The position numbers were made by a program, and so were the translations under genes. Shown here piece after piece: positions 16,022-61,570 of a stretch of DNA of 64,000 nt. The notes beneath the pieces were generated by a model. It was not told the DNA's origin, did not search any database, and saw only the letters and a list, made by a program, of their open reading frames with translations. The number at the start of each line of letters is the position of its first letter. Position 1 is the first letter of the stretch. Origin of the DNA: Candidatus Puniceispirillum sp. (GTDB taxonomy: Bacteria; Pseudomonadota; Alphaproteobacteria; Caedimonadales; UBA1908); assembly GCA_013822015.1 (NCBI GenBank), contig PNJU01000011.1:1-64000 (forward strand), in the 5' to 3' direction.

Positions 16022-16097
<76 letters not shown>

Positions 16098-38038: not shown

Positions 38039-38058
38039 GACTTTGTTCCTAATCCCTG

Positions 38059-38562: not shown

Positions 38563-39498
38563 ATGAGTATTCTGACTGATAAAATTAATGATTTTCTTAG
38601 ATCTAACAACCTAACGGTTGCTGAGGCAGAGAGAAAAGCTGGAGTCAAACCAAACTCTATTCATAATATTTTAAAAGGGCGCATCAAAACACCACATCGA
38701 AAGAACCTCCTTTTGTTGGCGGAAATGCTCTCGTGCAATCCACAGGATCTGATATCTATAAGTAAAAGTTCAAGGAAGAGAATATTATCCAGGCAGGAAA
38801 AAGAAAATCTTTGCACAAGTGTCGCGTATCTTCTCAGTAAACTGAACATTTCTGCTCCTCGCCTTGCTTTTCTTTGTGGCTTTTCTCCTAGTTCACTTTC
38901 AAAGATCCTATCTCCGAAAATTGTAGAGACAAATCCAAGTCGGAAAGTTTTGTCAGGGCTTGCAGCACTTGTATCATGTGCTGAAGAGGATCTACTCATG
39001 GCGCGCACTGATAAATTTAAGCTCCCCAGGATAGAGGATGATGAGGCAGACGACATATCCCCCTTACGTATGGCCATTTCAACTTATTTGGAACAAAACA
39101 AAATATCCATACCAACACTAGAACGCAAAGCTCGCATCGAAACAAACGCGCTGCGAGCTATTCTTCAAGGGACGTCAAAAAGGCCCATGGCTGATACCGT
39201 TGCAGCAATTGCTAATACGCTCGGTGTTACTGTTGAAAATTTGTTGGAAGGAAAATTAGAGCAGAAACAAAATACAACTAAAGCCTCATCGATCATATTG
39301 CTAACCCATCCTGAATTGTTTCGGGAGACACTTGCTGTGATTTTAGAAATAGCAAAAGAAAAGAAGGTCACTTTTACGCTTCATCAGATCTGTGGGATGC
39401 TTACTGAGGCTTATTTATACGCAGTCAAAACAGATCCCATAGCAGTGCAAAAACCATTCTTAGAATGGGTAGTTGAAAAGGTCAGGACTAAGACATGA
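38563..39498 (+). CDS. Regulator with three XRE-type helix-turn-helix domains
   Basis: The 311-residue protein has three consecutive XRE-like HTH domains, near residues 5-65, 82-145 and 165-225; the first and third are clear (VAEAERKAGVKPNSIHNILKG, IPTLERKARIETNALRAILQG) and the middle is divergent. A 60-residue C-terminal helical domain (LFRETLAVILEIAKEKKVTF...FLEWVVEKVR) is shared with the next gene and with the chromosomal regulator at 59582. It starts the module opposite the transfer operon and may repress it, as XRE proteins do in many ICEs. Its stop overlaps the next ATG. Confidence 0.8.
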   Translation: MSILTDKINDFLRSNNLTVAEAERKAGVKPNSIHNILKGRIKTPHRKNLLLLAEMLSCNPQDLISISKSSRKRILSRQEKENLCTSVAYLLSKLNISAPRLAFLCGFSPSSLSKILSPKIVETNPSRKVLSGLAALVSCAEEDLLMARTDKFKLPRIEDDEADDISPLRMAISTYLEQNKISIPTLERKARIETNALRAILQGTSKRPMADTVAAIANTLGVTVENLLEGKLEQKQNTTKASSIILLTHPELFRETLAVILEIAKEKKVTFTLHQICGMLTEAYLYAVKTDPIAVQKPFLEWVVEKVRTKT

Positions 39499-39974
39499 AG
39501 CAGCAACCGCCATCGCTTGATTTTTTACGATCCAAGATTCAGGCTTACCTCGCAGGCCACGCAATAAACCTCAAAGCTTTTGAGCGCATGACTGGTTTGA
39601 AGTATAGATCTCTCAGCAATATTATGTATGGGCAAGCCAATCGAGTCAGTATTTTTACGTACGCAAAAATTGCCAAGGTCATGGGTTGCACAGTGGAGGA
39701 GCTTATGGGCAAGCAAGATAGGGTGCCCCCAAAGGATCCCTTAAAAGTCAGTGTAAAAGACTCTCCTCCCATCAGGGATGGAAAGTTGCTTCTGGGACAT
39801 CTTGACCTCATTCTAAGGATATGCAAAGACCACGGAGTGCTTTTGAGCCCTAGTCAAGTTTGCCGCATGCTTGAGCAAAGCTATCTTTTTACCGTCAAAA
39901 ATGAGGACAAGAGTCCAGATCGTACATTCATTCTTTGGCTTCTCGAGCGAGTAAAGGTTTATGGTGATATTTAA
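39495..39974 (+). CDS. XRE-type regulator with shared C-terminal domain
   Basis: The 159-residue protein has one XRE HTH (residues about 12-70: NLKAFERMTGLKYRSLSNIMYG) and the same C-terminal domain as its neighbour (LLGHLDLILRICKDHGVLLS...FILWLLERVK). ATGA overlap with the preceding gene implies coupled translation, so the two could form heteromers through the shared domain. It converges with the HATPase-like gene, overlapping by 4 bp. Confidence 0.8.
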   Translation: MKQQPPSLDFLRSKIQAYLAGHAINLKAFERMTGLKYRSLSNIMYGQANRVSIFTYAKIAKVMGCTVEELMGKQDRVPPKDPLKVSVKDSPPIRDGKLLLGHLDLILRICKDHGVLLSPSQVCRMLEQSYLFTVKNEDKSPDRTFILWLLERVKVYGDI

Positions 39975-40639
39975 GCAAGCGTAATCTCAACATGATTCCA
40001 ATTCGGCTCTGAATTTCCAAAATATATAGACCAACCAAGAGTGTCGGCAAATTTGCGCAGGTATTCTCTTGAAGGCAGGGCGCCATAGCGTTTTTTTTGA
40101 TGGCTTCTTAGTCCGATCAAAGAATCACTTACGTCTAGACCATTATCTAAAATGCGGACCACACATTGATTCGTAATTTGACACGTTATTGGCTCGATAA
40201 TGATCGTGCCCCCAGGACTTACACGCTCTTTAATAAGTTCGATCAAAACACAGAAAAACACTTGAAAAACAAGAGGGTCTATGTATGGTGCAAGTTTGTT
40301 CTCTGGGGAGAGAATAACGAGATTTACACCGTTTTCCAGAAAGAAATTGTGGTAAGATTTCGTTATTTTTTTGATTACATGAAATAAATTGACTTGTGTC
40401 ACTGCATCAGACAGAGGTATGCCACAGGAGAGTCTTTTAAGAATCAGAAAGACTTCCTCAAAACACACATCATTGCCCTGTGATGATAATTTTTCCGTGC
40501 CCCGTGTCTCAGATAACTTTATCAAGATACAGCAAAGGTGTGCCATTTTCTGGTAACGTTCGATGAGAGTTGTAAGAAATATCGGATCAAGCATATGCGA
40601 TTGTATATGCTGAGACGCTGTATGTGTAATAAAAGCCAT
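39971..40639 (-). CDS. Degenerate HATPase (histidine-kinase-like) protein
   Basis: The 222-residue cytosolic protein has no membrane segment. Its second half resembles a kinase ATPase domain: VFFCVLIELIKERVSPGG stands at the N box and VVRILDNGLDVSDS at the G1 box. The N-box Asn is replaced (ELIKE for NAxK), and no phosphorylatable H-box with HExRTPL pattern is visible in the first half. It may be a scaffold or ATP-binding switch rather than a kinase. It lies 2 bp after the LuxI-like gene, in one operon. The chromosomal sensor at 60035 shows the same kind of decay. Confidence 0.6.
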   Translation of the reverse strand: MAFITHTASQHIQSHMLDPIFLTTLIERYQKMAHLCCILIKLSETRGTEKLSSQGNDVCFEEVFLILKRLSCGIPLSDAVTQVNLFHVIKKITKSYHNFFLENGVNLVILSPENKLAPYIDPLVFQVFFCVLIELIKERVSPGGTIIIEPITCQITNQCVVRILDNGLDVSDSLIGLRSHQKKRYGALPSREYLRKFADTLGWSIYFGNSEPNWNHVEITLA

Positions 40640-40641
40640 TT

Positions 40642-41166
40642 CTAATGCCTGTGGGGATTTTGGAACAGCGCGATGCAGAGATTATCTTCGAGTGCGAGCT
40701 TGGGCTTGAAGCGCATTTCACCGAAAAGTTGAAGTTTTTCGATCTCTTCAGGGGGGGCAAGAAAAAGAAGTGTCCCAATTTGAAAGCGTACGCAGGCTGT
40801 GATAACGGCCTCACGAAATCCCTCGTAGCATTTGAAATGAAGTCTGTGAACTGCCTCTTGCCCATCCTGAATTGTGTGTGAATCCTTAAGATGGAAAACC
40901 ATCAGGCTACATTCCCATATACCTTGCGCCTCAAACCCTCTCACATAGCTACCAAGGGTGTCACTTGTGAGATTCTTCGTGGTCATGGGGTTAAGGCGAG
41001 CGCCCATTCTAAGGCCCGTATGCGGGTCTTGGTAAGTAATGTAAATTGAATGATCGTGATCATAAACTGAGTTGTTTGTAGGAAGTGGGTGGGCCTTTTC
41101 TGCAAAAATGTGATTAATGTCGCATTCGAAAATAGCGCGATTTTTTTGGTCGATAATTTTAAACAT
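40642..41166 (-). CDS. LuxI-like acyltransferase (autoinducer-synthase family)
   Basis: The 174-residue protein fits the autoinducer-synthase branch of the GNAT fold: FAEKAH near residue 22, then D..HSIYITYQDPHTGLRMGARLNPMT, then IWECSLMVFHLKD matching the WE.S.F.V block. It aligns end to end with the chromosomal protein at 58690 (MF.I...NR, FA.+A, .YI.Y.D, E.S..VF). Canonical W34 and the Arg after the second block are not clearly kept, so it may use other acyl donors or be non-catalytic. ATG 41166 has AGGGA 8 nt upstream; an earlier start lacks one. Confidence 0.62.
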   Translation of the reverse strand: MFKIIDQKNRAIFECDINHIFAEKAHPLPTNNSVYDHDHSIYITYQDPHTGLRMGARLNPMTTKNLTSDTLGSYVRGFEAQGIWECSLMVFHLKDSHTIQDGQEAVHRLHFKCYEGFREAVITACVRFQIGTLLFLAPPEEIEKLQLFGEMRFKPKLALEDNLCIALFQNPHRH

Positions 41167-41306
41167 TGTGTTTTCCCTGTTTTTTAATGTCGCTTTTTTG
41201 ACCACTTTTGTCTTAAAAAACAAGAAAAAAGATATTTGGGGGGGGTAGCTTCTAATTTAAGCTTTATTATATCTATATGATTTGAAATTCTTTTTTGCTT
41301 TAGAGT

Positions 41307-41714
41307 CTACAATCTCATTGCATCTAAAGTGTCGCTCAGACCGTCTAGGGTATCACTCGCTGAAATAACGTTATGTATGCCTGCTTCTTTTAAACGTGCT
41401 GAAATTTCATCTGTCTCAGATTGACTGACGCGACTGGAAAGCAAACAGGTTACCGTAGCATGTTTGCACAAAGGCTTTAATATATCTTCTATCATTGTAA
41501 TGGATTGATCATTTGTGCGGTAAATTAATGGACTCATTGCATATAAGAAAGTTGAGGCCCCCTTATTGATACACTTGAGGACATCTTCTGAATTCGACAC
41601 GATACCCAGATTTTGTACAGTTCTATTTTTTTCGCTGAGAATTAAATCTAAGAGAAATAGCTGCATGGCTGTTTCAGGGGAATTAATAGAAAAAATTACA
41701 TATTTAGCGGGCAT
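41307..41714 (-). CDS. Small alpha/beta protein, possibly a pseudo-receiver
   Basis: The 135-residue protein is not firmly recognised. Alternating strands and helices (YVIFSINSPETAMQLFLLDLIL at the start, TVTCLLSSRVS and KEAGIHNVISASDTLDGL later) suggest a receiver-like fold, but no acidic pocket or phospho-Asp motif is visible. AAGG lies 8 nt before the ATG. It is on the same strand as the LuxI-like and HATPase genes and may belong to their module. Confidence 0.5.
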   Translation of the reverse strand: MPAKYVIFSINSPETAMQLFLLDLILSEKNRTVQNLGIVSNSEDVLKCINKGASTFLYAMSPLIYRTNDQSITMIEDILKPLCKHATVTCLLSSRVSQSETDEISARLKEAGIHNVISASDTLDGLSDTLDAMRL

Positions 41715-41758
41715 TTATTTGCCTTTTTGATCTAAATAGAGAATAATTATTTTGTGCT

Positions 41759-42649
41759 TCACAATGCTGAAAAAGCGTCTTTATAAAAAGAAATAAGTTT
41801 TTTATTTTTTTCATAGCCTGCAATGTTTTCTTCACAAATGATGAAATAGGTGTTAGTTGGCCCTGCTAGCTCAGGTAAAACAGGCACAAGATCATATTTT
41901 TTTAGATCTGGATGTTGTGGCGGTACGGATATAATACCTACGTCTTTTGAGCAAATGTAACACCTTTTAAGATGAGCATCTATGTCCATATATGCCTTCC
42001 TCGGGTTATTTTTTGGCCTACCAATATGTAGGTGCCAATTTAAATCATCGGGCCTATTGCCGTAAATTGAATATGCAACAAGCTGGTGTTTATCTAGATC
42101 TTCTGGAGACTCCGGTTTTCCATGTTTTTCTAAATAACCCTTGGACGCGTATAGGCGCAAAGTAAGCGATATAAGAGGTTCTTGGACATATCCAGTAAGG
42201 TTTTCTATATAAGGGCTTATGAGGATGTCAGTGTTTAATTTTTCAGCAAGTGATAGACCATCGGAAGAGAGAAGAGTCATGCGCGTATGTGGGTTAGCGA
42301 TGATGAATTTGTCGATAAATGTTTCAATATATCTTGTTAAGATGCTTGAGGGAGCCAGTGTTTTGATGTGATCCATGTTATGCCCTCTACGGTTATTTTG
42401 CCACTCGGTTTCAGACCGAAGCATATTATAAACCTTTTCCGCTGTCAATAAAAGATGTTCCCCTTCTATTGTTAAGGACAAACCGGATTCAAGCCTATTA
42501 AACAATTTGATACCAAGTTCTTTTTCTAGAGAACGAATTGAGGCGCTGACGGCAGGGGAGGTTTTATTTTGCAGTTCAGCTGCCCTGTTGATTGAGCCCG
42601 CACAAGCGGTTAAATAGAAAATTCGTAATTTATCCCAACTAAAACGCAT
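41759..42649 (-). CDS. LysR-type transcriptional regulator
   Basis: The 296-residue protein begins with a LysR HTH (LRIFYLTACAGSINRAAELQ...VSASIRSLEKELGIKLFNR) followed by a type-2 periplasmic-binding-like effector domain (about 95-290). The region before it holds an AT-rich palindrome (42708-42732). It could respond to a small ligand and control the regulatory module or the nearby cargo. It is AT-rich compared with the transfer operon. Confidence 0.88.
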   Translation of the reverse strand: MRFSWDKLRIFYLTACAGSINRAAELQNKTSPAVSASIRSLEKELGIKLFNRLESGLSLTIEGEHLLLTAEKVYNMLRSETEWQNNRRGHNMDHIKTLAPSSILTRYIETFIDKFIIANPHTRMTLLSSDGLSLAEKLNTDILISPYIENLTGYVQEPLISLTLRLYASKGYLEKHGKPESPEDLDKHQLVAYSIYGNRPDDLNWHLHIGRPKNNPRKAYMDIDAHLKRCYICSKDVGIISVPPQHPDLKKYDLVPVLPELAGPTNTYFIICEENIAGYEKNKKLISFYKDAFSAL

Positions 42650-42707
42650 CTCACGATCTTGTTACTTGTGCTATTTATATATATTGTCTCATAAATTCAT
42701 TCTTATT

Positions 42708-42732
42708 TTGTTGACTTTTTGTTAACAAAAAG
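42708..42732. promoter_or_regulatory. Palindromic operator-like site between lysR and pld
   Basis: CTTTTTGTTAACAAAAAG (42715-42732) is a perfect 18-bp palindrome, and TTGTTGAC-TTTTT-GTTAACAA (42708-42728) overlaps it as an imperfect repeat. It is about 60-80 bp before the LysR start and 70 bp past the pld stop. It may be the LysR operator. The inner motif resembles the palindrome at 233-265. Confidence 0.45.
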
Positions 42733-42800
42733 CAAATTGTCTGTAGGGTTATTTTGCAAAGAAACTATAAGTATGATCCCCTATTGCTGCCCTGGCTAAA

Positions 42801-43379
42801 TTATTTTGAGCCTTGTGTTGCTCTCATGCGCTCCTCCCAGTTTTTTTTGTACTGTTTAGCAAGCTCAGGGCTCTCAATGAAGAGGATGTTCTCGGCATTA
42901 CGAAACTGAGCGGCGTTGGTCCAGTTGTAAGATCCTGTCACAACGGTTTTGCCATCGATGATCATGACCTTGTTGTGGGAAATGGCAACGGTCTTATCAA
43001 AGGTGATGGACACACCTTGGGTTGCAAGGAGGGAAAGTTGTGTTCTTTCCCTCTCGCGTTGTCCATCATCGGCAATGACGTGAACCTTGATGCCACGCCT
43101 TTGTGCATTGATGAGAGCCTCGGCTATAGGCCTAGCGGTGAACGAGTAGGACATGACCAAGATCTCGCTTTTAGCGGCATCAATGGCACGCACAATTTTA
43201 TTTTGGCATTGACCCCCTGGCGTAAAGCAGGCCTCCATGCGCACGCCACTTTTCTCGTCAACGATGATAGGAAAAGCAAGCTGGCGGATCGCTTCATAGA
43301 CGAGCAGTGTAATGACCGCCGCAAGAATGGAGGAAATCGTCCATTTTGGGGACAAAAGAGAAACGCGGCGCCTGCTCAT
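42801..43379 (-). CDS. Phospholipase D-family nuclease with membrane anchor
   Basis: The 192-residue protein has an N-terminal membrane or signal segment (about 15-35) and one HKD motif: HNKVMIIDGKTVVTGSYNWTNAA near residue 135, like the Nuc endonuclease, which dimerises to form its active site. It probably acts outside the cytoplasm on nucleic acid or lipid. ATGA overlap with fic indicates one operon. Its first 17 residues (MSRRRVSLLSPKWTISS) and about 55 bp of DNA recur at the start of the 97-residue frame at 45055. Confidence 0.85.
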   Translation of the reverse strand: MSRRRVSLLSPKWTISSILAAVITLLVYEAIRQLAFPIIVDEKSGVRMEACFTPGGQCQNKIVRAIDAAKSEILVMSYSFTARPIAEALINAQRRGIKVHVIADDGQRERERTQLSLLATQGVSITFDKTVAISHNKVMIIDGKTVVTGSYNWTNAAQFRNAENILFIESPELAKQYKKNWEERMRATQGSK

Positions 43380-44467
43380 GGGTTTGTCTTCCTTGCGAGT
43401 CTATATCTTGTGGCTTTGCCTTCCCCAAGGCGTTCTAAACGTTTCATATGGACAAGTTTTTTGATGATTTCCTCAACAGTGCGCTGCGGAAAACCGAGTG
43501 CTTGGGTTGCATCTTTGCGCGCAAACTCTGTGCCTCTCTCATTCGCCCATTCCCATAGTGCAAGCTGCTTTTGGGACAACAAGTACTCTATGGTATCTTG
43601 TTGCATAAGCCTCATGAAGCGAGCGCTTTGTTCTTTCATAGCGCGTAGGAAGAAAAGGAGCCAAGCTGAGATGTCTTCGTTTTCTGTTTTCCAAGTTTGT
43701 TGAGTTTTATTAAGAGCAAGGTAGTAGTCGATCTTTCTTTCTTCAATGATTTGCTCATGGGAGGTTACTTTTGTAAAAAGATACCCCTGTTGCAGCAACA
43801 TCAGATTGGTTATAAGGCGGCTTGTTCTGCCATTTCCATCTTGAAAAGGATGTATGGCAAGATATTCAAAAATGAAATTCCCAATGAGTATGAGAGGATG
43901 TTTTGCGTGTTGTGCACTTGCCCAGTGGTACCAATCAACGAGCTCTTGCATCTCTTTTGTAACAAGATACGGCGGCGTTGGTTCAAATATAACGCCTACA
44001 ACATTGCCGGAAGGATCTTTGGCTTCTACGCGATTTGAGCCACACTTGTATTTTCCGCGATGCCCAGCATCCTTCTCGCTCACGCGTAACATCTCTTGAT
44101 GAAGGTGCAAAATGGAGGATTGAGAAAGGGGTATGCCTTCATAACTTTTGAAAATGAATTCGAGGCACTCGAGATAACCTACAATTTCCTGTTCGTCTCG
44201 TGTCTTAAACTTTTTTACCCGCAGGCCCTTGTATAAGTCTTCAACCTCATCGTCCGTTAATCTGTTTCCCTCAATACGGTTCGAGGCCCCAGTGGATGTG
44301 ACAATGACTGATTTTGTGATGCGCTCCAGTGTTTGCGGCAACAAATGTGTTGTCACGATCCAACTGTTTTTAACGGCATCAATTTCCGCGATAAGGCTGT
44401 AGAACTCTTCTATGATATTTGATGAGAGACTGAGCCTTGTTTGCAGGCGAAATGTATCCCATGCCAT
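43376..44467 (-). CDS. Fic-domain AMPylase-like protein
   Basis: The 363-residue protein has a full Fic motif HPFQDGNGRTSRL near residue 200, so the catalytic His and the phosphate-binding residues are kept. An N-terminal inhibitory helix motif SNRIEGN (class II, S/TxxxEG) near residue 60 suggests self-restraint. A C-terminal winged helix follows (about 300-360: ARKDATQALGFPQRTVEEIIKKL). Fic proteins transfer AMP to target proteins; this chromosome-type form may modify a cellular or host protein. ATG 44467 is used; a TTG 18 bp earlier is weaker. An operator array lies upstream. Confidence 0.9.
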   Translation of the reverse strand: MAWDTFRLQTRLSLSSNIIEEFYSLIAEIDAVKNSWIVTTHLLPQTLERITKSVIVTSTGASNRIEGNRLTDDEVEDLYKGLRVKKFKTRDEQEIVGYLECLEFIFKSYEGIPLSQSSILHLHQEMLRVSEKDAGHRGKYKCGSNRVEAKDPSGNVVGVIFEPTPPYLVTKEMQELVDWYHWASAQHAKHPLILIGNFIFEYLAIHPFQDGNGRTSRLITNLMLLQQGYLFTKVTSHEQIIEERKIDYYLALNKTQQTWKTENEDISAWLLFFLRAMKEQSARFMRLMQQDTIEYLLSQKQLALWEWANERGTEFARKDATQALGFPQRTVEEIIKKLVHMKRLERLGEGKATRYRLARKTNP

Positions 44468-44490
44468 GTTCTTTTTACCTTGCAAGCTCT

Positions 44491-44570
44491 ATGTGAGATC
44501 ATGTGAGATCATGTGACAAAAGTCAAGTCACATATCTGATATGTGAGATCATGTGATATTATGTGAGAAA
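44491..44570 (-). promoter_or_regulatory. Decamer repeat operator array and promoter of fic-pld
   Basis: ATGTGAGATC-like decamers occur at 44491, 44501, 44511, 44541, 44551 and 44561, one per helical turn, with an inverted TCACAT in the gap. On the minus strand TTGACT (44526-44521) and CATGAT (44503-44498) with 17-bp spacing form a promoter inside the array. A protein binding the repeats would block it. Similar decamers recur at 45458-45515 beside the fic fragment. Confidence 0.6.
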
Positions 44571-44599
44571 TGCTTTCAGTTCTTTTGTAAGCCCTGGTC

Positions 44600-44720
44600 C
44601 AGCTCATTCAAATGACGCGTCGGCATCTTTTTTTGAACAGGGCGTTGATTGCCCAAAACTGCTGCGAAACATGCGATGGAGGAGTGGCTCATGATTGATC
44701 TCCCTTTCTGGTTTTCTCAA
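44600..44720 (-). pseudogene. Internally deleted copy of the 164-residue secreted-protein gene
   Basis: Bases 44600-44665 match the 3' end of the gene at 50150-50644, and 44668-44720 match its 5' end and upstream DNA. The middle of the gene is missing. It sits next to the intact fic operator, mirroring the order operator-(czcAB)-full gene in the second copy. Confidence 0.7.
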
Positions 44721-44761
44721 TTTTTGTTGGATATGAGCCCCTCTTTTTCAAAGATAATCTC

Positions 44762-45055
44762 TTAGATATTCTTATGACTTCTCTCAAGGTGGATGAGGTG
44801 TTCCAGTTCTTCTTCAAGTTCTTCTTTCATCTTTGTCAGCGCGTGGGGAGGCATCTCGCCCAAATCATTATCGTCATGTGTGGTGGCCTTCATGAGTTCT
44901 TCCTCCTTTGACAAATGAGTCATGGCTTTTCTTATGGCGTCGGCAATTTTCCAAAGAGCAATAGCACACTTTTTTGCTGCTCTGCCAAAGTAGAGCACAA
45001 AAACGGAGGAAATCGTCCGTTTTGGGGGCAAAAGAGAAACACGACGCCTTGTCAT
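44762..45055 (-). CDS. 97-residue protein with PLD-derived N-terminus
   Basis: The frame begins MTRRRVSLLPPKRTISS, nearly the first 17 residues of the PLD-family protein at 43379, then continues into unrelated helical, acidic sequence (EELEEELEHLIHLE). It looks like a chimeric remnant from the duplicated cargo region, although it is open. A partner frame with a stop lies just upstream. Confidence 0.4.
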   Translation of the reverse strand: MTRRRVSLLPPKRTISSVFVLYFGRAAKKCAIALWKIADAIRKAMTHLSKEEELMKATTHDDNDLGEMPPHALTKMKEELEEELEHLIHLERSHKNI

Positions 45056-45057
45056 GA

Positions 45058-45327
45058 TTACTTTTGCGATAAAAATCTCATGGCTGAAATGACACTAAAG
45101 ACAAGATGGTGAATCGCACTATTGTACTCTTGCGCCTTGTGTTCAAACTCGAATGCTTCATCCAGAGAAGCACCATTTATAAGTGCGTAACTTATCCATT
45201 GCCCAAATTCCTCGACAGTTTCCTCTTATAAACTTGGATTTTCTATTCGTCGAACTATGTAAAACAAAAAGCCATTTGTTCGGTATGGGTCAAAATCACT
45301 GACATGTCTGCAATATGTCATGTAGTC
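45058..45327 (-). pseudogene. Interrupted helical protein gene
   Basis: In one minus-strand frame, sequence from about 45327 reads DYMTYCRHVSDFDPYR, reaches an in-frame TAA at 45226-45228, then continues EETVEEFGQWISYALINGAS to TAA 45058-45060. The even codon sense on both sides of the stop points to a recently broken gene. No family is recognised. Confidence 0.55.
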
Positions 45328-45515
45328 AGATGTTTTTAACGGCATCAATTTCCGCGATACGGCTGTAGACCTCTTCTATGATATTTGATGAGATATTGGG
45401 TCTTGTGTGCAGGCGAAATGTATCCCAGGCTATGTTCTTTTTACCCCATGAGCTATACGTGAGATTATGTGATAAATATCAAGCCACGTGCATCATATGT
45501 GAGATTATATGAGAC
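45328..45515 (-). pseudogene. Fic 5' fragment with lost start codon and duplicated operator
   Basis: About 115 bp match the first 35 codons of fic (44364-44467), with differences. The start ATG has become ATA, and the frame runs into TGA at the junction near 45328. The decamer operator (ATGTGAGATT units) is also duplicated at 45458-45515. Confidence 0.8.
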
Positions 45516-45590
45516 AAGAAAAACGCCCCGCTGTTAACCCACTTTAGGATCAAGGACCACATCCTTATGAAGGCAGTGCGCAGTGAGCCA

Positions 45591-48809: not shown

Positions 48810-48824
48810 TATAAAGCCTCCCGC

Positions 48825-50045: not shown

Positions 50046-50149
50046 GGTTCAGGTTACCTTACATATAAAATCATCTTTCTTCAACAATTCACATTTGATC
50101 ATAGCATGTCTATCGTTCATTTAAAATCATCTGCATAATTTTTTAAGGG

Positions 50150-51428: not shown

Positions 51429-51770
51429 TGTTCCTTTCCTGAACAGGATCTACACAAGGAAGACTTTATCTTCCTTGGACCATCTCAGAATGCAACAATT
51501 TGCTCAGGTTCATGATGTCATCAAAGGATAAAATAAGCAACCCATCCGAAAAAAAGTTTTGAAGGCGCGCTGATACATTGCATAATGCAATGGCGCTTCG
51601 TTGCAAGCAACGCGCTGTGGGTTAGGCCAATGTCTCCCACATAAACGCTGCAACACAACGCCGGTCCCACCTGATGAGCAAAGCAGCTGGGCATCAAAAA
51701 TGGAAAGTACGTGACGCGAGCATTTAGAGCGCGTTCGGGATCTATTTTGATGCAAAGGGTTGGGACGACC
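51429..51770. other. Candidate origin of transfer (oriT)
   Basis: This gap separates divergent relaxosome genes, where Ti-type oriT sites lie. It holds three inverted repeats: CAAGGAAGA/TCTTCCTTG (51455-51477), CATTGCA-TAA-TGCAATG (51576-51592) and CGTTGC-AA-GCAACG (51599-51612). The last two lie 7 bp apart. No nick site is recognised. Promoters of both operons must also be here. Confidence 0.5.
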
Positions 51771-54700: not shown

Positions 54701-56531
54701 CATGTTTGCCCACCTTAGAGACGTTCAAAGTTCTCAATTTTCTGGCCATGATTTGCCTTCTCTTGCTTTCCTTCAAAAGCAACAAAAGCTCGCAGCCCAG
54801 CATGTGGGCGCACAGACCCTTGCAAAAGCACACCAGGCCCGTCTTGAAAAGGAAGGAATCCTTGCGCCAAAATGTAACGTAACCCCCATCACGCAGACTC
54901 CTTCTGCTCAAAAAGACGCAAGCACTCAACAGAAGCATGGGACGTCTCACAAACAAACCCCCACGCTCTCACCCCAAGAAATGCGGTCCTTTGTGGAATC
55001 CATCACCCGTGACACCGATGTGGCAGGGCTGGCCATGACCCTCATGGATGACCATGGCTTGCCCCTCAATAAGGCCCTGTCCAAAGCCAATGCCTTACGC
55101 TTTGGGAACAAGGGTAGCATTGTTGTGAATACGGGGGGTAAAACCCATGGTACGTGGCATTCCTTTGAAGAAAACAAAGGCGGCGGCGTTATACAACTTG
55201 TGCAGCATGTGAGGGGAGGTTCTTTCAAAGAAGCCCTTTCCCATATGGCGCCCTTTGTGACGGGACGCGCCCGACAAGATCTGGAGACCTTTTTGGAGGG
55301 CGCGTCCCCAACCATGACCCAAAATCTGTCCTCAAAAAGAGAATCTTCACTCACGCAAAATCAGGACGTGTCCCAGGCCCAAGAAAAAGCCCTCAAGCAT
55401 CAAGAGGTGAAAGCCCTTGTGGCCGCCTCTCACCCCTTAGAGGAAACCGTTGCGCGTAGCTACCTTAAGGGACGCCAGATTCAAAAAGAGGCTCCTAAAA
55501 GCTTGCGCTTCTTAACGCCAGGTACAACCTTTAGCTATCAGGGTAAAATCCGCACGGTGAAGGGAGGAGGCGCTTTGTTGTCCTGTGCCATGGACGAGAA
55601 GGGCGTAGTGCAAGCGGCGCAGATCACTTATCTTGATCCAAGCGGCGCCCGGGCACGTAGCCAGGATGGTAAAAAGTTCTCAAAAATCACTTACGGCTCT
55701 CCCAAAGGAGCCTTCGTCCCCCTTCAAAAAGAGGACGGCCCCCTTTATGTGGCTGAAGGCATGGAAACAGCCCTTTCCCTACGCGAGGTAGGTGTGAAAG
55801 GCACCATTGTGGCCTCCCTTGGTATCACCAACATGGAAAATCTCCCCATACAAAAAGAGAGGGACGTTGTCCTTGTGGCCGATTGGGACGGCGAAGACGC
55901 CCCATCCCAAAAGATGATTGAAAGAGCCAAGCTCACCCTCACCCAAAAAGGTATGAAGGTGCGTACCCTCTGGCCCTCAAAATCCAGCGAACACAAACTC
56001 GACTTCAACGATTTGCTGATGAATGAAGGCCCTGAAAAAGTCAGACAGGTTATAAATAACCAAGGCGCTTTTTCTGAAGCACAAACGCCAAAATCTGAAA
56101 TAGCTACCCAAGTTTATATAGAGAATAGCCAAACTTACTTATGCCTTGTCTCAAAAAATAAAACAGGTGAGCAGTCTATGATACCAATGACAATGAGCAA
56201 AGAAGAGAAGAGCTTCATTCATAGGTTTGAGGTGCAACATCCTCAGGCTTCTCAGACAATAAGGTCCGAATTAGAAAAAAATGGTATGCCCGCTCTAAAA
56301 GCAGAGGATCACATCAGCGTTGCTGTCGTAAAGCTTGAATGTCTTGTGCACTTGCGGCACTTCGCGAACGATGCAAGCCTTAAAAAGGATGCTGAGTCTG
56401 TTTTGAAAGGCACACTGTCCAATATGGGCTCTGATTGTTTTCAAAAGATAAGGTCTCTTTCGCCTCAGCTATCAAAAAACCTTGAGACTATAGCTACTCC
56501 CAACCAAAAGGACAGAGCCCTTGGTATATAG
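51771..56531 (+). CDS. traA: TraA relaxase-helicase-primase
   Basis: The 1586-residue protein starts at GTG 51771, giving the family start VAIFHAHTKMI; ATG 51750 is possible. Residues 1-240 are a MobA/MobL-type relaxase with metal motif HPHCH near 145. Residues about 385-900 are a RecD-like helicase: Walker A GFAGTGKTT, DEAGMVD, and a late IYKTQGLTVD. About 1080-1190 is a CHC2-like region (GTWHSFEENKGGGVIQLV), and 1320-1420 a Toprim domain (LYVAEGMETALSL, VADWDGEDA). The last 150 residues are AT-rich in coding and match nothing known. It nicks oriT, unwinds DNA and may prime the new strand. Confidence 0.93.
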   Translation: MAIFHAHTKMIGRKTHDTVKALAYRAGTTLTCPLTGQVNSYANKSVPWVWLLLPKDAPLWARDIQEEITHNRRSGVQKFCNVIELAEKRVDAQVYREFEFSLPRELTLEQNIALAQEFLQDQVCGMGISVMANMHLEEDKDGNPHPHCHALFLTRRSEEKGLSSHKEREWNARDLVPKWRESLADYINFHLAMNGHEARVDHRSYEEQGIDLLPQPKLGWLKYFSKRDEKDAFVPSHKQREREQQLSYNTAKILARPEIVFEAIAKRQSTFMWGDVEAILAANIKDKWLFDSLSERLLNSRELECLGEIKKKRHASAPIVDTRIYTTRSIRALERSLMEGARRLSCAQSHAIDHDIAAQVEGDFDERLVEFGGLSKDQKEALAHILAPKQLACVTGFAGTGKTTIVEAAKNVWERSGYQVVGLAPTGRARDNLSVLGLKAMTVHSFLKGYGAGRNQYKNDTVFVLDEAGMVDVERFAGLVAATKTLGVKLVAMGDSGQLQAIEAGDAFRLVTGVSSSKNLTHVVRQRVGWQRKASQNFGEGNARQAVETYFKKGRIRVLDEHVPRLGDLIQTGHMEGVVRLYNLTRRMTGNIYVRMREDMETKMGVAVDDLNASLPHHPDWELFTDLCATRRSCVEHMMCNIQDARPLMRTLGVDPVEFARTFTDREMDPTFQSEDVTDFIHEWALPLLDANAQKHVCDLRKDTREKLLQHWKTTFNKHPGKTLLISTNSKAETTLLNQELRGYLRDIKVLSGKDVSLITQITKEDSLGKTHNAYVKKSFAKGDRILFCKADKGLGVANGDLGTLLKVSEKSVSVRLDSGKEVSFSPTLYKNFDHGWAINIYKTQGLTVDYHFVLGSLQDYQNLSYVGMTRHRKDLFVYASALDFWRKDVLLETLSKPKEKLTALDYGEETVVTKEDNLPLSHARLRAGDMVRSGLYLIKQGYEDVGVRYFGMLPRGRDFFVPQGTLSEHERAKELTMFAHLRDVQSSQFSGHDLPSLAFLQKQQKLAAQHVGAQTLAKAHQARLEKEGILAPKCNVTPITQTPSAQKDASTQQKHGTSHKQTPTLSPQEMRSFVESITRDTDVAGLAMTLMDDHGLPLNKALSKANALRFGNKGSIVVNTGGKTHGTWHSFEENKGGGVIQLVQHVRGGSFKEALSHMAPFVTGRARQDLETFLEGASPTMTQNLSSKRESSLTQNQDVSQAQEKALKHQEVKALVAASHPLEETVARSYLKGRQIQKEAPKSLRFLTPGTTFSYQGKIRTVKGGGALLSCAMDEKGVVQAAQITYLDPSGARARSQDGKKFSKITYGSPKGAFVPLQKEDGPLYVAEGMETALSLREVGVKGTIVASLGITNMENLPIQKERDVVLVADWDGEDAPSQKMIERAKLTLTQKGMKVRTLWPSKSSEHKLDFNDLLMNEGPEKVRQVINNQGAFSEAQTPKSEIATQVYIENSQTYLCLVSKNKTGEQSMIPMTMSKEEKSFIHRFEVQHPQASQTIRSELEKNGMPALKAEDHISVAVVKLECLVHLRHFANDASLKKDAESVLKGTLSNMGSDCFQKIRSLSPQLSKNLETIATPNQKDRALGI

Positions 56532-56555
56532 CAGACTGCCGGAAGAGCTTCAAAA

Positions 56556-56574
56556 GATGGAAATATGATGGAAA
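56556..56574 (+). repeat. Right candidate integrase arm site
   Basis: Exact copy of the 19-bp sequence at 16191-16209, 78 bp inside attR. The rest of 56532-56652 is AT-rich and holds no gene. Confidence 0.55.
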
Positions 56575-56652
56575 AAAATATAACGAACATGAAAAAGATT
56601 TTATTATTCATATATTGCAATATATTAAATTTGCATACATATTCACACTTTT

Positions 56653-56701
56653 CTGACTCTTAATCAGCGGGTCACAGGTTCGAGCCCTGTAGCGCCCACC
56701 A
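56653..56701 (+). repeat. attR core (partial tRNA-Lys repeat)
   Basis: The 49-bp repeat of the tRNA-Lys 3' half, without the D-arm half, so it is not a tRNA gene. It marks the right end of the ICE. Confidence 0.92.
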
Positions 56702-56775
56702 GGATCCCCCAAATTTTTCCCAGCTGTATGACACGTCTTTCTTAGAAGAAGATATTTCTCTCTTCCAACTTTGGA

Positions 56776-56812
56776 CGCAAAAAAACCTCCCCCCAAAGGG
56801 GAGAGGTTTTCC
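56776..56812 (-). terminator. Rho-independent terminator of the RNase III-like gene
   Basis: On the minus strand CCTCTCCCC and GGGGGGAGG pair around a short T loop and are followed by seven T. It lies about 20 bp past the stop of the gene at 56830. Confidence 0.8.
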
Positions 56813-56829
56813 ATGACGCAAACCCGGTC

Positions 56830-58509
56830 CTAATGGGGTTTGGTGTTTTGGTTTTGCTTGTGTGAGGGGACTGACTTGGGCACACCAGCCTTTGGCACAG
56901 CGACTTTGGCCGGCGCCCCCACCTTTGCCTGGTTTTGTTTCTTATGATCCTTTTCACCGCGGCCATTTCCCTTTGTGTTGGCCACACTCGGTTGTTGCTT
57001 GCTGCCTGAAGGCGCGCTCGTTGCAACAGCCGGCTTGAGGGCGACAGGCGCAGGCACCGCCACAGAAGGCGCACTGGCGAGGGCAGTTACGGGTACAGAC
57101 GCAGTCACAACAGGCGCAGGTACGACCACAGAAGAGGCACTAGCTGCGACGCTCGCGGGCGCGGCAGCAACCACGGGTGGAGGTACAGCAACAGAAGGCG
57201 CACTAGCTGCAGCGGTTACGGACGCAGCCAAAGCCAAAGCCGCATCCACAGTGGCACGTTTTGCGGCTGCTGCAAGTTTTGCCTCCGCAGCGCTTTTTAG
57301 AGTAGCGGCGCGTATGGTTTGGAATTGTCCAAGCCTGAGGGCCTCGCGGGCATCACGCTTTGATTTTTCTGCAGCGATGATAAAGGCACAGGCCTTTTGC
57401 GCCGCCGCTTCTTCGGCCTTTGCCTTGGTACTCCCCTCACCTTCGCCGACAAGTTGGCCGTCGAGGATAATTTTAAATTTAAAGGGCGACACGCTGCCCT
57501 GACACGCGTCAGAACGTTCCTTTACACCCAGGAACTTTATCATCTCACTAAGGTAATACCGGAAATTTAGATCTAACTGTGGAAGCGGCTCACTGGGACC
57601 AAGAGGCCCACGGGAAAGACTGATCAGTGCCTGGAGGGCTGCGTTTTCTTCAGCCTGCTGCTGGGTGCGTCCGCGCCCCTCGTTCTTTTTACCCACCTGG
57701 GCGGCCACGACGTGTGACACAAAGACCACCTGGCCTTTCTCGTCCATGTCAAAATGCGTCACATACTCCGGCCGCTCGTCAAAAATCTTTAAAAGCACTT
57801 CGTTCAAGAGAGACTTAGGGTTTTCCTTAAAAAGGCGCGCGGGTGTGCACACGGCCTTTAAGGCTTCATCTTGCTCCGGGGACACGCTTGGGGTGAAAGA
57901 TAAATGCTTGCGCTTTCCTAAGAGTGCTTGTATTTCAACCTGGGTTGTTTCCTCGTCCAGAAGACGCATGACAAAACGCCTGGCGTTATCAAGTCCGTTA
58001 CGCCGGTCATCCTTGTAAATGGCGCCCACGAGGGCCTCCACAACGTTACAGATCTTATAATTTTGATTAGGGCAGGGCAAATAACGCTCCAGATCCAAAT
58101 TCCACAAGTAAATTTCCGTTAAGGTTTTATTCTTCACCAAGTGAGAGCCGAGCATGCTCAAATGTCCCCGGTCATGACCCGGAAACATCTCAATAAGCCT
58201 GTCGGTCATGACAAGTTCCAAAACCGCGTCCCCACGCCACTCCAAAAGATCAAAGTCGTTTTTCTTTCCTTGAAGCCGCTGGGGCAACATGGGATAAAGG
58301 GCGTCCCTCAAAAGGTCGGTGTTTTGAAATTTATGGTGCAGATGGGCCTGGAGGCGGGGGTAATCAATTTCCTTCTCCGAGGAGAATATGGCCGCCAGGG
58401 GCGGAAATGATTCCTTATTAGGATTAGAGGCACAAGCAAGGTCCGGTAAAAACGTCCCCATAAAAGCCACAAGGGTGAGAGAAAAGATCTTATTTTTGGA
58501 AAACAACAT
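56830..58509 (-). CDS. Exported RNase III-like protein with two dsRNA-binding domains
   Basis: The 559-residue protein starts with a signal peptide (about 1-27, ending LACAS). Residues about 50-185 are an RNase III domain: LEWRGDAVLELV gives E90 and D94 (E. coli E41, D45), D87 stands at E38, and CNVVEALVGAIY gives N155 and E158 at D114 and E117. The D114-to-Asn change may weaken metal binding. Two dsRBDs follow (about 240-310 and 325-385, the second with GEGEGSTKAKAEEAAAQKA). The last 150 residues are Ala/Val/Pro repeats (SAPSVAVP units) and a basic Gly/Asn/Lys tail. Housekeeping RNase III is about 225 residues, cytosolic, with one dsRBD, so this is a separate protein, perhaps acting on host RNA. 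Confidence 0.82.
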   Translation of the reverse strand: MLFSKNKIFSLTLVAFMGTFLPDLACASNPNKESFPPLAAIFSSEKEIDYPRLQAHLHHKFQNTDLLRDALYPMLPQRLQGKKNDFDLLEWRGDAVLELVMTDRLIEMFPGHDRGHLSMLGSHLVKNKTLTEIYLWNLDLERYLPCPNQNYKICNVVEALVGAIYKDDRRNGLDNARRFVMRLLDEETTQVEIQALLGKRKHLSFTPSVSPEQDEALKAVCTPARLFKENPKSLLNEVLLKIFDERPEYVTHFDMDEKGQVVFVSHVVAAQVGKKNEGRGRTQQQAEENAALQALISLSRGPLGPSEPLPQLDLNFRYYLSEMIKFLGVKERSDACQGSVSPFKFKIILDGQLVGEGEGSTKAKAEEAAAQKACAFIIAAEKSKRDAREALRLGQFQTIRAATLKSAAEAKLAAAAKRATVDAALALAASVTAAASAPSVAVPPPVVAAAPASVAASASSVVVPAPVVTASVPVTALASAPSVAVPAPVALKPAVATSAPSGSKQQPSVANTKGNGRGEKDHKKQNQAKVGAPAKVAVPKAGVPKSVPSHKQNQNTKPH

Positions 58510-58689
58510 ATACTCCTTTATTGCATGTCATCTATACGTTGCCAGCAAAGTAGTGACGCATGGCTCTACGCCCAGAATTGCTTTCTGTCAAGAGTTATTT
58601 TTATGATGTAAAATATGATGGGAGATACTGCAATTTATCTTGAATCTATTTGATCCTTACATGGGCAAGGCAAGCCTATGACAATCTTC

Positions 58690-59244
58690 TTAAAAGACTG
58701 GCTGCGTTGCGGCCAACGTGTTGGTCTGGTCAAAGACGAGAAAGCCCGCATGGAGGGGGATTTGATCCTCAGGACTTGGCACCACAATGGGAGACACAAA
58801 GTGCCACGCCCCCAGCTGCGTACATCTTTCATGGACCTCGGGCGAGCTGACACAGAAAAAACCTTTGAGCGACAAGGAGACAGAAAGGGTCTCAAGCATA
58901 ATCGCCAGGCCTTCGTAAAACCAACGTACATGGAGTGCCTTGTTGGGATCCGCGTCCAGCACGCCATCCTCATCGAAAACGATACAGCTGACTTCCATGA
59001 GCTTGAGCGTATCGCACGCACGCTCGTCCACAAGATCCACACGCCTGAGTAAACTCTGACGCAAAGGATTCACGCGGCAACTGCCAAAGAGGTTCCTCTT
59101 TTTATCTTCATAAACGATATAAACGCTCTCGGGCCCATCACTGGCCGCGTCAAAACGAGGGTCAGCCTTGGCCCGATCTGCGAACATGCGCGCCAGGTGC
59201 GTTTGATGGTGAGGTCTATTTTGCGGCAATATAAGGGTGAACAT
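58690..59244 (-). CDS. Chromosomal LuxI-like acyltransferase
   Basis: The 184-residue protein matches autoinducer-synthase layout: MFADRAK near 20, FDAASDGPESVYIVYED, FGSCRVNPL, then LKLMEVSCIVFDEDG for the E.SR..V block, and GLAIMLETLSVSLSLKGFFCVSSPEV in the C-terminal half. It aligns along its length with the ICE protein at 40642. Some catalytic residues differ from LuxI (W34 not seen, SC for SR). AAGGTG lies 6 nt before the ATG. It neighbours an XRE regulator and a sensor, as in the ICE. No LuxR is present. Confidence 0.62.
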   Translation of the reverse strand: MFTLILPQNRPHHQTHLARMFADRAKADPRFDAASDGPESVYIVYEDKKRNLFGSCRVNPLRQSLLRRVDLVDERACDTLKLMEVSCIVFDEDGVLDADPNKALHVRWFYEGLAIMLETLSVSLSLKGFFCVSSPEVHERCTQLGAWHFVSPIVVPSPEDQIPLHAGFLVFDQTNTLAATQPVF

Positions 59245-59303
59245 GTCTCACCTTCCCGTTATAAGAAATGCTTCAAATCCCGTTTTGTCTCCCCCTAAAA
59301 TGT

Positions 59304-59378
59304 GGCTCCCCATGAAGGGGAGCCGAGTTTACAGGGAGGCTCACGTAAGCGAAGGGAGAAACCATGCAACTTACGTGA
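59304..59378. promoter_or_regulatory. Inverted repeats upstream of LuxI-like gene
   Basis: GGCTCCCC-ATGAA-GGGGAGCC (59304-59324) is a perfect hairpin about 60 bp before the LuxI-like start. Next to it TCACGTAAG (59341-59349) and CTTACGTGA (59370-59378) form a perfect 9-bp inverted repeat with a 20-bp spacer. The hairpin could act in the mRNA leader; the second pair looks like a dimer binding site. Confidence 0.5.
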
Positions 59379-59478
59379 CTTCACTAAGCAAACGGAGCAT
59401 GCTTAGGAAACTCAAATGTCAAACGGTACTGACTTGCGGCGCGCAACGTGGCCATGCTCGCAATCTTTTTTATTATCT

Positions 59479-59546
59479 GATATTATAAAAATGTACCGTA
59501 TGGACATGTATCGATCATTTCTGTAAGATATCATAAAAATTGGTAC
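59479..59546. promoter_or_regulatory. Direct repeats before the chromosomal XRE gene
   Basis: GATATTATAAAAATGTAC (59479-59496) and GATATCATAAAAATTGGTAC (59527-59546) repeat with few changes, 48 bp apart, ending 35 bp before the XRE ATG. They are candidate sites for autoregulation. The remaining gap 59245-59581 holds the inverted repeats listed separately and no gene. Confidence 0.45.
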
Positions 59547-59581
59547 AGTCAACGGTTTTTGGATAATTTTTTAGGAATAAC

Positions 59582-60013
59582 ATGTCTGCAAATTTAGCCT
59601 CTAATATCAAGCGCTTACTCGATGAAAGTCGACTTTCTGTTATGGGCCTTGAGAAAAAAGCGGGATTAAAAACAAATGCCGTAAGGAATATCCTGAGTGG
59701 TCACACAAAAAAGCCTAGTGCTGAAACGGTGCTTGCCATCTCCAGGGCATTGGGATGCAGCCTAAGCCAAATCATCGAGGATGACCGAGAGCACCAAAGC
59801 GCCCTCGAGGAAATGGGATTTGAGAACGTTCCGCTTTTTAAAAGCACCGTTTTGTATTTTCTAGATTTTTATGAAAAAAACGCGCTCATTGCGACAAATA
59901 CCGTTTTCATCGAGTCTATTCATCACATTTACAAGTATCTGTCGGATAACAACAAAGGCCAGTTCGACGAACGCTTCGCAGACTGGTTCCTCAGCCGTCA
60001 GCTCCCTCTCTAG
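59582..60013 (+). CDS. Chromosomal XRE-type regulator with shared C-terminal domain
   Basis: The 143-residue protein has one XRE HTH (residues about 8-66: VMGLEKKAGLKTNAVRNILSG) and a C-terminal domain (LFKSTVLYFLDFYEKNALIA...FADWFLSR) like that of the two ICE regulators. It lies between the LuxI-like gene and the sensor and converges with the sensor, 21 bp apart. It may control the LuxI-like gene. Confidence 0.82.
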   Translation: MSANLASNIKRLLDESRLSVMGLEKKAGLKTNAVRNILSGHTKKPSAETVLAISRALGCSLSQIIEDDREHQSALEEMGFENVPLFKSTVLYFLDFYEKNALIATNTVFIESIHHIYKYLSDNNKGQFDERFADWFLSRQLPL

Positions 60014-60034
60014 GACTTTTGGGCGCCCAAAGCG

Positions 60035-61570
60035 CTACGCGAAAAGGGGCACAACATTTCCTTGGTGGGAAGCCGCCTCTTGCTGGCCTGCGCCCCCATC
60101 ATGAAACGTCAGGATATGCTGCACGTCCCGCCTCTCCCATGAAATGCCAAGCTTCTCTCTGAGCGTATCGACGCTTCTTTGGGACAAGCGTGAGGCACCA
60201 ACCACGATGCCTTTCTCTAAAAAGACCACATGGCCACTGACATGCTCACCCTGCACCTCAACAGATAAGGACGCATCTTTTCCTAGTGTACGCGCCACGT
60301 GAACACTGGCACCCTTGAAACAGCTCCCAAGAACATCCTTGAAAAAACAGAGCATGAAAATCTGCATTGCTTTTTCATCTCCGGAAATCGAAAAGTCACA
60401 AAGAGATGCATCCAGAGAAAGTGACGCCTTGGCCCGCAACAAATCTGGCTCAAGGACCTCTTTGATTTGGGCAAGCAGTGACCCCATATTGATGGGGGCA
60501 ACCTGGTTTGGCTCTACCTCACCAGCCTGGAGCTGTTTTGCTGTGTACATGAGCGCCTCAAGGAGCTCCCCATGATCAAGCACGCCCGTCCCGTGCTGGT
60601 CGCTGCTCAGCAGTGTGGCAAGGGCAAGCAGCTTATCAATGTGTTGCGCTTTGCGCTCCTCAATAAAGGCGGAAAGCCCCTTTTCAAAGGCAGCCTTGCG
60701 TCTTTGCATGTTTTTTTGGGCTTGGCCGTCACCCAGCTCTTGCGTAAGGCGTGCACATTTTTCCTGTACATGGGAAAGTTCCTGGGTCACGGACTCAAGC
60801 TGATCTTGTTTAAAGCGCCTTGCACGCAGCAAAGCACTCCCATAAGCAATAGAAAACAAGGTAAACAAGCCTAAGATACATGAAAAGAAAACCGCACTTT
60901 GGGGGAGGCATTTTCTCAAAAACGCATGCCAAAAGGTCGCACCTGTTCTTGAATAGTCATAGTCTTGGGTAGGCCCGTGCAAGGGCCCACCCTTTCGCGG
61001 GTAAAGCTCGCCCACCCCCAAAAAGTGAGCCAGATTCTCAAGGGGCACATCTATAACAAATGACGCGTCTTTGAGACGCAAAGGAGCCGTCATCCTCAAG
61101 GCGTCTTTTTGATGAGCCAGCTCCCCATCCTTCGGTGCAATGTGCTCAGAAAAAGAAAAATCTCTTGGCAGAAAGGGCGATGATTGACTTAAGGAAAAGA
61201 GATTTGGATGGGCGTCATGGGCCTCAATCCCCTTGGCCATAAATTCAACATGGTGACCAAGCTGTTGAAGGCGAGTGCTCCACAAGCGCTCTACACGCCC
61301 CTCTTCTGCTACCCGCGCCTTATGTGCACTTTGCGCATGCATCACAAGGCTTGCCCCCATGCAAATGACAAAAGCAGCAGTGACAACGCCCAAAAGCGTT
61401 TTGAAACGGAAAGGTATAACGTACTGAAAAAGAACCCGTAACCCTCGCAGTTGCGCGCGCCCATGATGAAGCCATGTCGCGCTCGAGGTCGTTTTTGAAA
61501 ATTGAGGGCGATTGCAGTTCTTCTCATAAGAGATGATTTCCTCAGCACTCCCCTTTACTACCGGCTTCAT
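60035..61570 (-). CDS. Membrane sensor with degenerate histidine-kinase domain
   Basis: From ATG 61570 the protein has 511 residues. Two membrane segments (about 58-79 and 224-246) flank a periplasmic sensor region of about 140 residues. A coiled coil and helical dimer-like region follow, then an ATPase-like domain starting ISGDEKAMQIFMLCFFKDVLGS. The N-box Asn and the Gly-rich G boxes are not seen and no phospho-His box is clear, so it may not be an active kinase. An upstream start at 61603 lacks a ribosome site. It parallels the ICE HATPase protein. Confidence 0.65.
   Translation of the reverse strand: MKPVVKGSAEEIISYEKNCNRPQFSKTTSSATWLHHGRAQLRGLRVLFQYVIPFRFKTLLGVVTAAFVICMGASLVMHAQSAHKARVAEEGRVERLWSTRLQQLGHHVEFMAKGIEAHDAHPNLFSLSQSSPFLPRDFSFSEHIAPKDGELAHQKDALRMTAPLRLKDASFVIDVPLENLAHFLGVGELYPRKGGPLHGPTQDYDYSRTGATFWHAFLRKCLPQSAVFFSCILGLFTLFSIAYGSALLRARRFKQDQLESVTQELSHVQEKCARLTQELGDGQAQKNMQRRKAAFEKGLSAFIEERKAQHIDKLLALATLLSSDQHGTGVLDHGELLEALMYTAKQLQAGEVEPNQVAPINMGSLLAQIKEVLEPDLLRAKASLSLDASLCDFSISGDEKAMQIFMLCFFKDVLGSCFKGASVHVARTLGKDASLSVEVQGEHVSGHVVFLEKGIVVGASRLSQRSVDTLREKLGISWERRDVQHILTFHDGGAGQQEAASHQGNVVPLFA

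Follow-up and report, generated by a model that had tools for sequence, protein, structure and literature searches.

Quorum sensing by TraI and TraR is known from the Ti plasmids. A LuxI-family gene that lies on an alphaproteobacterial conjugative element and is placed to control its transfer is also described, in PMC10359603 and PMC3907764, for the integrative and conjugative element (ICE) ICEMlSymR7A. We analysed a 64,000-nucleotide stretch (the window) of contig PNJU01000011.1 from the alphaproteobacterium Candidatus Puniceispirillum sp. (assembly GCA_013822015.1), which carries an ICE with genes for a LuxI-like protein, two XRE regulators and a degenerate HATPase and, just beyond the ICE, a chromosomal set of the same gene types. 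Like the TraI/TraR systems of ICEMlSymR7A (with FseA/QseM) and the Ti plasmids, here too the conjugative element of an alphaproteobacterium carries a gene of the LuxI family. Unlike in those systems, no LuxR was found beside the genes, most LuxI invariants are lost, and the paired regulator is an XRE protein with a different C-terminal domain.

ImmR is an XRE regulator of a mobile element. The XRE proteins of the window share a phage-repressor-type helix-turn-helix (HTH) with ImmR, TrbA and phage repressors, and differ from them in a C-terminal domain without a PDB sequence match. A further parallel, by description and not by sequence, is the Rickettsiales amplified genetic element (RAGE), likewise an ICE with HATPase-domain proteins: the main text of PMC10732058 reports that in Orientia it is accompanied by 45-113 variously truncated HATPase-domain proteins per genome, and mentions neither XRE, quorum nor NB-ARC. 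The main text of a Holosporales review contains none of the terms quorum, LuxI, homoserine, histidine kinase and integrative. Among the titles and abstract openings surveyed, paywalled papers being outside this scope, no description of the gene module reported below was found.

We put the chances at about even that these genes belong to a mobile regulatory module, spread over several families of small-genome Alphaproteobacteria, in which an XRE protein is controlled by non-canonical sensors. Judged from sequence, its most constant part is the XRE protein with a C-terminal domain of its own; the usual partner is a kinase-like, predicted membrane protein without phospho-acceptor and N-box motifs, often joined by a gene for a STAND/TPR ATPase and, at some of the sites, by a LuxI-fold gene. 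About half of the sites adjoin ICE genes. An earlier sequence-only reading of the window had proposed a signalling module with shared-domain XRE proteins as its output. All open reading frames (ORFs) that it named were found in place, and a multi-gene module with such an XRE protein as its most constant part was borne out; the STAND gene, the LysR context and the family-wide degeneracy of the LuxI-like and kinase-like proteins go beyond it. The two gene sets and the ends of the ICE are as follows:

16049..16097, forward strand: attL, the 3' part of tRNA-Lys (CTT) (tRNA 16022-16097); left end of the ICE
38563..39498, forward strand: ICE XRE1, with HTH_26 domains and the shared C-terminal domain
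39495..39974, forward strand: ICE XRE2, with one HTH_26 domain and the shared C-terminal domain
39971..40639, reverse strand: ICE degenerate HATPase, lacking both the long N-terminal sensor and the C-terminal tail of the family
40642..41166, reverse strand: ICE LuxI-like protein, non-canonical (the listed ORF starts at a TTG at 41223)
56653..56701, forward strand: attR, the second repeat copy; right end of the ICE; the chromosomal LuxI-like gene follows after about 2 kb
58690..59244, reverse strand: chromosomal LuxI-like protein, non-canonical (from homology to the ICE protein, tree position and residue counts)
59582..60013, forward strand: chromosomal XRE, with the shared C-terminal domain
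60035..61603, reverse strand: chromosomal membrane kinase-like protein, with two hydrophobic segments, no H-box, no N-box and the tail NVVPLF

The ICE is bordered by a 49-bp exact direct repeat that corresponds to the 3' part of the tRNA-Lys gene. It combines tRNA integration and att repeats with an integrase and conjugation genes, and includes the two XRE genes, the HATPase gene, the LuxI-like gene and a LysR gene; the names Tra, Rep, AlpA and integrase come from reading the sequences, without a library scan. Because of the repeat positions, the chromosomal set, beginning about 2 kb past the right copy, lies outside the ICE.

The shared XRE domain and its gene neighbourhood

The chromosomal XRE protein matches ICE XRE1 at an E value of 6e-15 and ICE XRE2 at 1e-8, and the invariants of the C-terminal domain in a four-row alignment include Y117, F132 and W135, in agreement with the earlier observation of a shared domain ending in F..W. 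A model of the chromosomal protein, built from three sequences (predicted local distance difference test, pLDDT, 79.2; predicted template modelling score 0.46), comprises the HTH, a low-confidence linker at residues 68-80 and three more helices from residue 83. All 13 PDB sequence matches fall on the HTH region and none on the C-terminal domain. In contig scans for relatives of the module, a single chromosomal protein as query found none, and alignment A3 recovered four loci in two Alphaproteobacteria metagenome-assembled genomes; to judge by gene content and genome size, the group might tentatively be of Holosporales type. Among 11 genomes of the order, four carry XRE proteins with this C-terminal domain. 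In a sample of the class, 37 of 386 genomes matched the XRE profile, with many matches confined to the HTH; a phylum sample of 398 genomes (the class together with other classes) gave 13 matches at E 1e-8, and the three outside the class are essentially HTH only (positions 3-91, 5-80 and 5-80). On contig C11 of the same genome, beyond the window, an XRE protein appears by reading to be fused to a response-regulator receiver and lies beside a histidine kinase of the ordinary type, in which both H-box and N-box are present (L042, 6611-7279 and 7289-8782).

Gene neighbourhoods were compared at 37 XRE sites (40 genes in 16 genomes), each with at least one match running well past the HTH; three lower-scoring loci (L145-L147) and HTH-only places were set apart. 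The profiles used for each site were stripped of the rows of its own genome, although all rows had first been aligned together, and neighbours were counted within 6 kb. As controls, 20 of 48 HTH_26 genes without the C-terminal domain, hand-picked along the list, were searched with the full profiles. Kinase-like genes accompany 23 of the 37 sites, STAND genes 21, either of the two 29, LuxI-like genes 9, and any of the three 32; among the controls the respective numbers for kinase-like, STAND and LuxI-like genes are 1, 0 and 0. Co-occurrence, which the sequence-only reading had named as a test, is far above that of the controls (kinase-like or STAND genes 29/37 versus 1/20); LuxI-like genes take part at 9/37 sites (0/20 controls). 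Within the same 6 kb, ICE-type genes accompany 17 of the 35 sites outside the window and 2 of the 20 controls.

A third set of module genes in this genome was found on contig C14. The fullest layout, in which a kinase gene followed by a STAND gene converges on the XRE gene and the LuxI-like gene is divergent, is seen at L120, which belongs to another family, and on C14, where the kinase-like copy is broken into two reading frames (L031, 3510-4529 and 4547-4921). LuxI-like/XRE pairs are divergent in 8 of 9 cases, the pair on the window's ICE being convergent. The XRE and HATPase genes converge at both the ICE and the chromosomal locus, as had been described.

Degenerate kinase-like and LuxI-like proteins

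BLASTP gives no specific match between the two HATPase proteins of the window (best E 1.2); they are joined only through a wider family. Against a kinase-like profile from other genomes, the chromosomal protein scores E 2e-16 and the ICE protein E 5e-9; this is a cleaner test than a profile that lacks the module members of this genome but retains one of its ordinary kinases (L042). Neither protein reaches E 1 with any Pfam family. The family as counted here has 25 members, from which the ordinary kinases L042, L144 and L159 are excluded. Like sensor histidine kinases, its members have an HATPase-like C-terminal half with a partly kept G1 box, and most have two hydrophobic segments: at least two such segments were found in 20 of 25 members and two in the chromosomal protein, which has the topology of a membrane sensor, while the ICE protein is without this layout. 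Unlike sensor histidine kinases, none of the 25 matches the H-box pattern (the ICE protein is too short to span the region), and the N-box pattern is missing from the expected position in all 25, with a single stray match near an N-terminus. The N-box loss noted earlier for both ATPase domains is confirmed and extends to the family. In three ordinary kinases taken as a check, the N-box pattern was found in 3/3 and the H-box pattern in 2/3.

A second difference from sensor histidine kinases is a short tail motif, N-[IV]-[VI]-x-[LF], at the C-terminal end of 19 of 25 members; the pattern was composed after viewing the tails, and is matched by a mean of 0.49 (maximum 3) shuffled tails and by 3 of 394 other long ORFs. 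We know of no description of this tail, for which no literature search was made.

The LuxI-like proteins of the ICE and the chromosome had been said to align end to end. Their homology holds (27% identity, E 3e-12), but the alignment covers most of their length only (residues 20-172 of 193 and 1-149 of 184). Homology also places the start of the ICE protein at the ATG at 41166, not at the listed TTG at 41223. Both fall in one family, not in unrelated GNAT families, and this family is homologous to the canonical N-acyl-homoserine lactone (AHL) synthases (hhalign probability 98.8%, E 1.4e-16). A structure model of the ICE protein (pLDDT 77.1) has the AHL synthase fold, its best PDB alignments being the AHL synthases TofI, LasI and BjaI.

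Compared to LasI, EsaI, TofI and BjaI (PF00765), however, the family has lost much of the canonical sequence. Neither window protein matches PF00765 at E 1, a level reached by 3 of 13 rows of the LuxI-like alignment A1, including canonical L041. Of nine residues invariant in 8/8 canonical LuxI rows, the 22 non-canonical rows retain R24 in 6 cases, F28 in 1, W34 in 1, E43 in 5, D45 in 5, D48 in 16, R69 in 11, E101 in 15 and R104 in 1, and the stretch flanking W34 is gone along with it. The ICE protein keeps D48, R69 and E101, and the chromosomal protein R24, D48, R69 and E101, so that neither has the full set of an AHL synthase. No LuxR was found among ten scanned proteins of the two loci; no genome-wide LuxR search was made. 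A PF00765 search of this genome gave a single weak place outside both loci (E 6.3e-5, below the cut-off), locus L001 on contig C5, where reading shows tandem FeeM/LuxI-like GNAT ORFs with EISRF/EVSRF motifs (522-1349 and 1249-2079).

Four LuxI-like genes of this family are present in the genome, on the ICE, the chromosome, C14 and C1. Over 16 chosen genomes the LuxI-like profile found 27 places, one of them canonical; the other 26, together with eight genes from three further genomes, make up the 34 non-canonical genes classified. Their neighbours are the XRE type in 9 cases (within 2 kb), an ICE replication-type gene in 9, kinase or STAND genes in 8, LysR in 11 (within 2 kb) and none of these in 7; because profile A5 contains XRE-linked LuxI-like genes, six of the nine first met inside XRE loci, the whole-genome search favours their kin. 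Beside ICE replication-type genes the LuxI-like gene is always on the same strand (9/9), preceding the replication-type gene in at least five cases (L120, L123, L154, L155 and L202) and following it in two (L204 and L206).

Several other settings were observed. At L034, L037, L032 and L143 a LysR gene paired with a major facilitator superfamily transporter gene (the latter by reading) is divergent from LuxI-like genes, and at L143 from a module-type XRE gene. At L155 (480-4136), a 1218-aa protein with a LuxR-type HTH, NB-ARC and TPR repeats is encoded next to ICE tra genes and a LuxI-like gene. LuxI-like genes adjoin yajC-secD-secF (by reading) at L039 and L148, whose genomes belong to different families, which suggests an old chromosomal position for these genes.

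Upstream element and neighbouring genes

Further features lie within or beside the two sets:

36545..38062, reverse strand: ICE replication-type gene, named by reading; phmmer relatives lie within 2 kb of LuxI-like genes at 9/34 places
38059..38379, reverse strand: ICE AlpA-like small HTH gene, named by reading; divergent from XRE1, with relatives adjoining XRE genes in other genomes
41759..42649, reverse strand: LysR-type regulator (Pfam PF00126); adjoins the ICE LuxI-like gene, with relatives flanking LuxI-like genes elsewhere
59303..59354, reverse strand: 52-nt conserved non-coding element preceding the chromosomal LuxI-like gene; the C14 copy is L031 7936-7986 (51-52 nt)

The chromosomal and C14 copies of the 52-nt element are 87% identical, while the LuxI-like proteins encoded there are only about 50% identical, and no other place in this genome matches it at E 0.1. 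On the LuxI strand, its region folds better than shuffled sequences (z -3.5 and -2.9); the opposite strand shows the same tendency less uniformly (-3.4 and -1.8). The element could act as an operator or as a structured leader. A known riboswitch was considered and set aside for want of a credible Rfam match; a possible pairing to the ribosome-binding region was observed.

Between attR and the chromosomal set, positions 56830-58509 encode a protein with an RNase III domain, double-stranded RNA-binding motifs and, by reading, a signal-like N-terminal peptide and a long Ala/Pro-rich tail; it looks like an exported RNase III.

Candidate mechanism, alternatives and meaning

From the gene content and arrangement we infer the following mechanism. 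The XRE protein would repress or switch a divergent promoter and, on ICEs, the adjoining replication and transfer genes, with its C-terminal domain as the input. The kinase-like protein would sense something across the membrane and act by binding rather than phosphotransfer, perhaps by way of the STAND protein or of its own conserved C-terminal tail. For the LuxI-fold protein, the most likely role is to bind S-adenosylmethionine (SAM), acylated acyl carrier protein (acyl-ACP) or acyl-coenzyme A, or to synthesise something different from a standard AHL, by which it would report metabolic state. In the window, one set would serve the ICE, and a separately descended set some chromosomal function. 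The position of the genes makes timing of ICE transfer by the module plausible. A bolder version is a real, if minority, possibility: both signalling enzymes would now be non-catalytic sensors, the LuxI-fold protein reading SAM or acyl pools and the kinase-fold membrane protein acting via its short C-terminal tail, and would converge on an XRE protein that gates ICE replication and transfer in host-associated bacteria, as a new class of control system.

A number of observations weigh against the proposed module. Regarding the kinase-like partner, the H-box pattern overlooks some real kinases (L159 has no match), the catalytic Asn column is kept in 1 of 24 proteins (L055), and the ICE HATPase and the L031 piece do not span both the H-box and N-box regions. 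The family is mixed, since L056 and L130 carry a Cache domain with near-threshold HATPase_c matches and L128, L138 and L141 resemble them by reading; the L031 copy drops below threshold once its own genome is left out of the profile. One of the 23 kinase matches (L144) is an ordinary kinase with both motifs, so stricter counts are 22 sites for kinase-like genes and 28 for kinase-like or STAND genes. The survey is weakened by contig ends and by profiles, that of the kinase-like proteins among them, seeded from these same neighbourhoods. No ICE gene lies within 6 kb at 18 of 35 sites outside the window, and 5 of 37 sites have none of the three partners. Because 28 of 37 sites, some cut by contig ends, are without a LuxI-like gene, this gene is an optional part; as 10 of 34 LuxI-like genes occur with LysR only and 7 of 34 without any partner, they also have roles outside the module. 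Finally, the window's ICE departs from the common layout, with convergent LuxI-like and XRE genes, no STAND gene nearby and an HATPase without sensor and tail.

Three other explanations were weighed. The sequence-only reading took the ICE set for a copied chromosomal circuit, by which the element would hijack a host signal, and the same gene types do stand side by side in one genome, with both HATPase genes convergent with an XRE gene. The trees, however, disfavour copying. In the LuxI tree the chromosomal protein is sister to that of C14 (support 100/100). The ICE protein belongs to a separate clade (100/99, good support) together with five LuxI-like genes from the genus, of which three are divergent from LysR. 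In the XRE tree the chromosomal protein is again sister to C14 (98/97), and the ICE pair groups with another genome's XRE beside an AlpA-like ICE gene (86/87, moderate support, with long branches and a weak root). Since both trees place the ICE proteins elsewhere, the ICE set very probably did not arise as a copy of its neighbour, and the hijacking account is very unlikely. A second account takes the LuxI-like proteins for working, fast-diverged synthases of AHL or acyl-amino acids, with the XRE C-terminal domain as signal receptor in place of LuxR. The AHL synthase fold of the ICE model and the presence of D48, R69 and E101 in 8/8 rows from the window's genus fit it, and canonical LuxI relatives elsewhere adjoin LuxR-type autoinducer-binding genes (L041, Pfam 6.1e-14; L151, L152 and L157 by reading). 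Yet W34 and its flanking stretch are gone, 21 of 22 rows have lost F28, and as many have lost W34 and R104, and the proposed synthase and receptor seldom meet: 25 of 34 LuxI-like genes have no such XRE gene within 2 kb and 28 of 37 XRE sites no LuxI-like gene. AHL signalling appears doubtful because most canonical LuxI invariants are lost and the kinase-like proteins lack H-box and N-box, and we regard this account as unlikely.

Alternatively, XRE, kinase and STAND proteins could form a defence or element-conflict system, with the STAND protein as killer or sensor, the XRE protein as its repressor and the LuxI-like proteins as passengers. STAND ATPases are common in conflict systems, and the location on mobile elements and the NB-ARC and TPR matches of the STAND proteins point the same way. 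PADLOC, however, gives only weak matches to known defence systems: mads_8 to two STAND proteins (E 0.0063 and 0.0015), Csx21 to the L126 kinase-like protein (E 0.0017 and 0.0027), and HTH-level capH or PDC-M69A to the window's XRE proteins. No effector domain was found in the two STAND proteins scanned with Pfam, and wherever a LuxI-like gene lies near an ICE replication-type gene, the two share a strand (9/9). We hold this explanation to be improbable. In PHROGs, the window's XRE proteins have regulator-type and other weak matches, the L126 kinase-like protein matches a family of unknown function (E 5.8e-9), and one STAND protein has a weak match.

If the regulatory module with non-canonical sensors is real, it would offer a testable account of conjugative-element control in Alphaproteobacteria that have small genomes and are probably host-associated, and for which ordinary quorum sensing may be of little use. 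The account leads to specific predictions, namely an XRE operator, a contact between tail and XRE protein, and binding of SAM or acyl compounds. The paired decay of LuxI-fold and kinase-fold proteins within one recurring neighbourhood would be a useful case of enzymes turned sensors.

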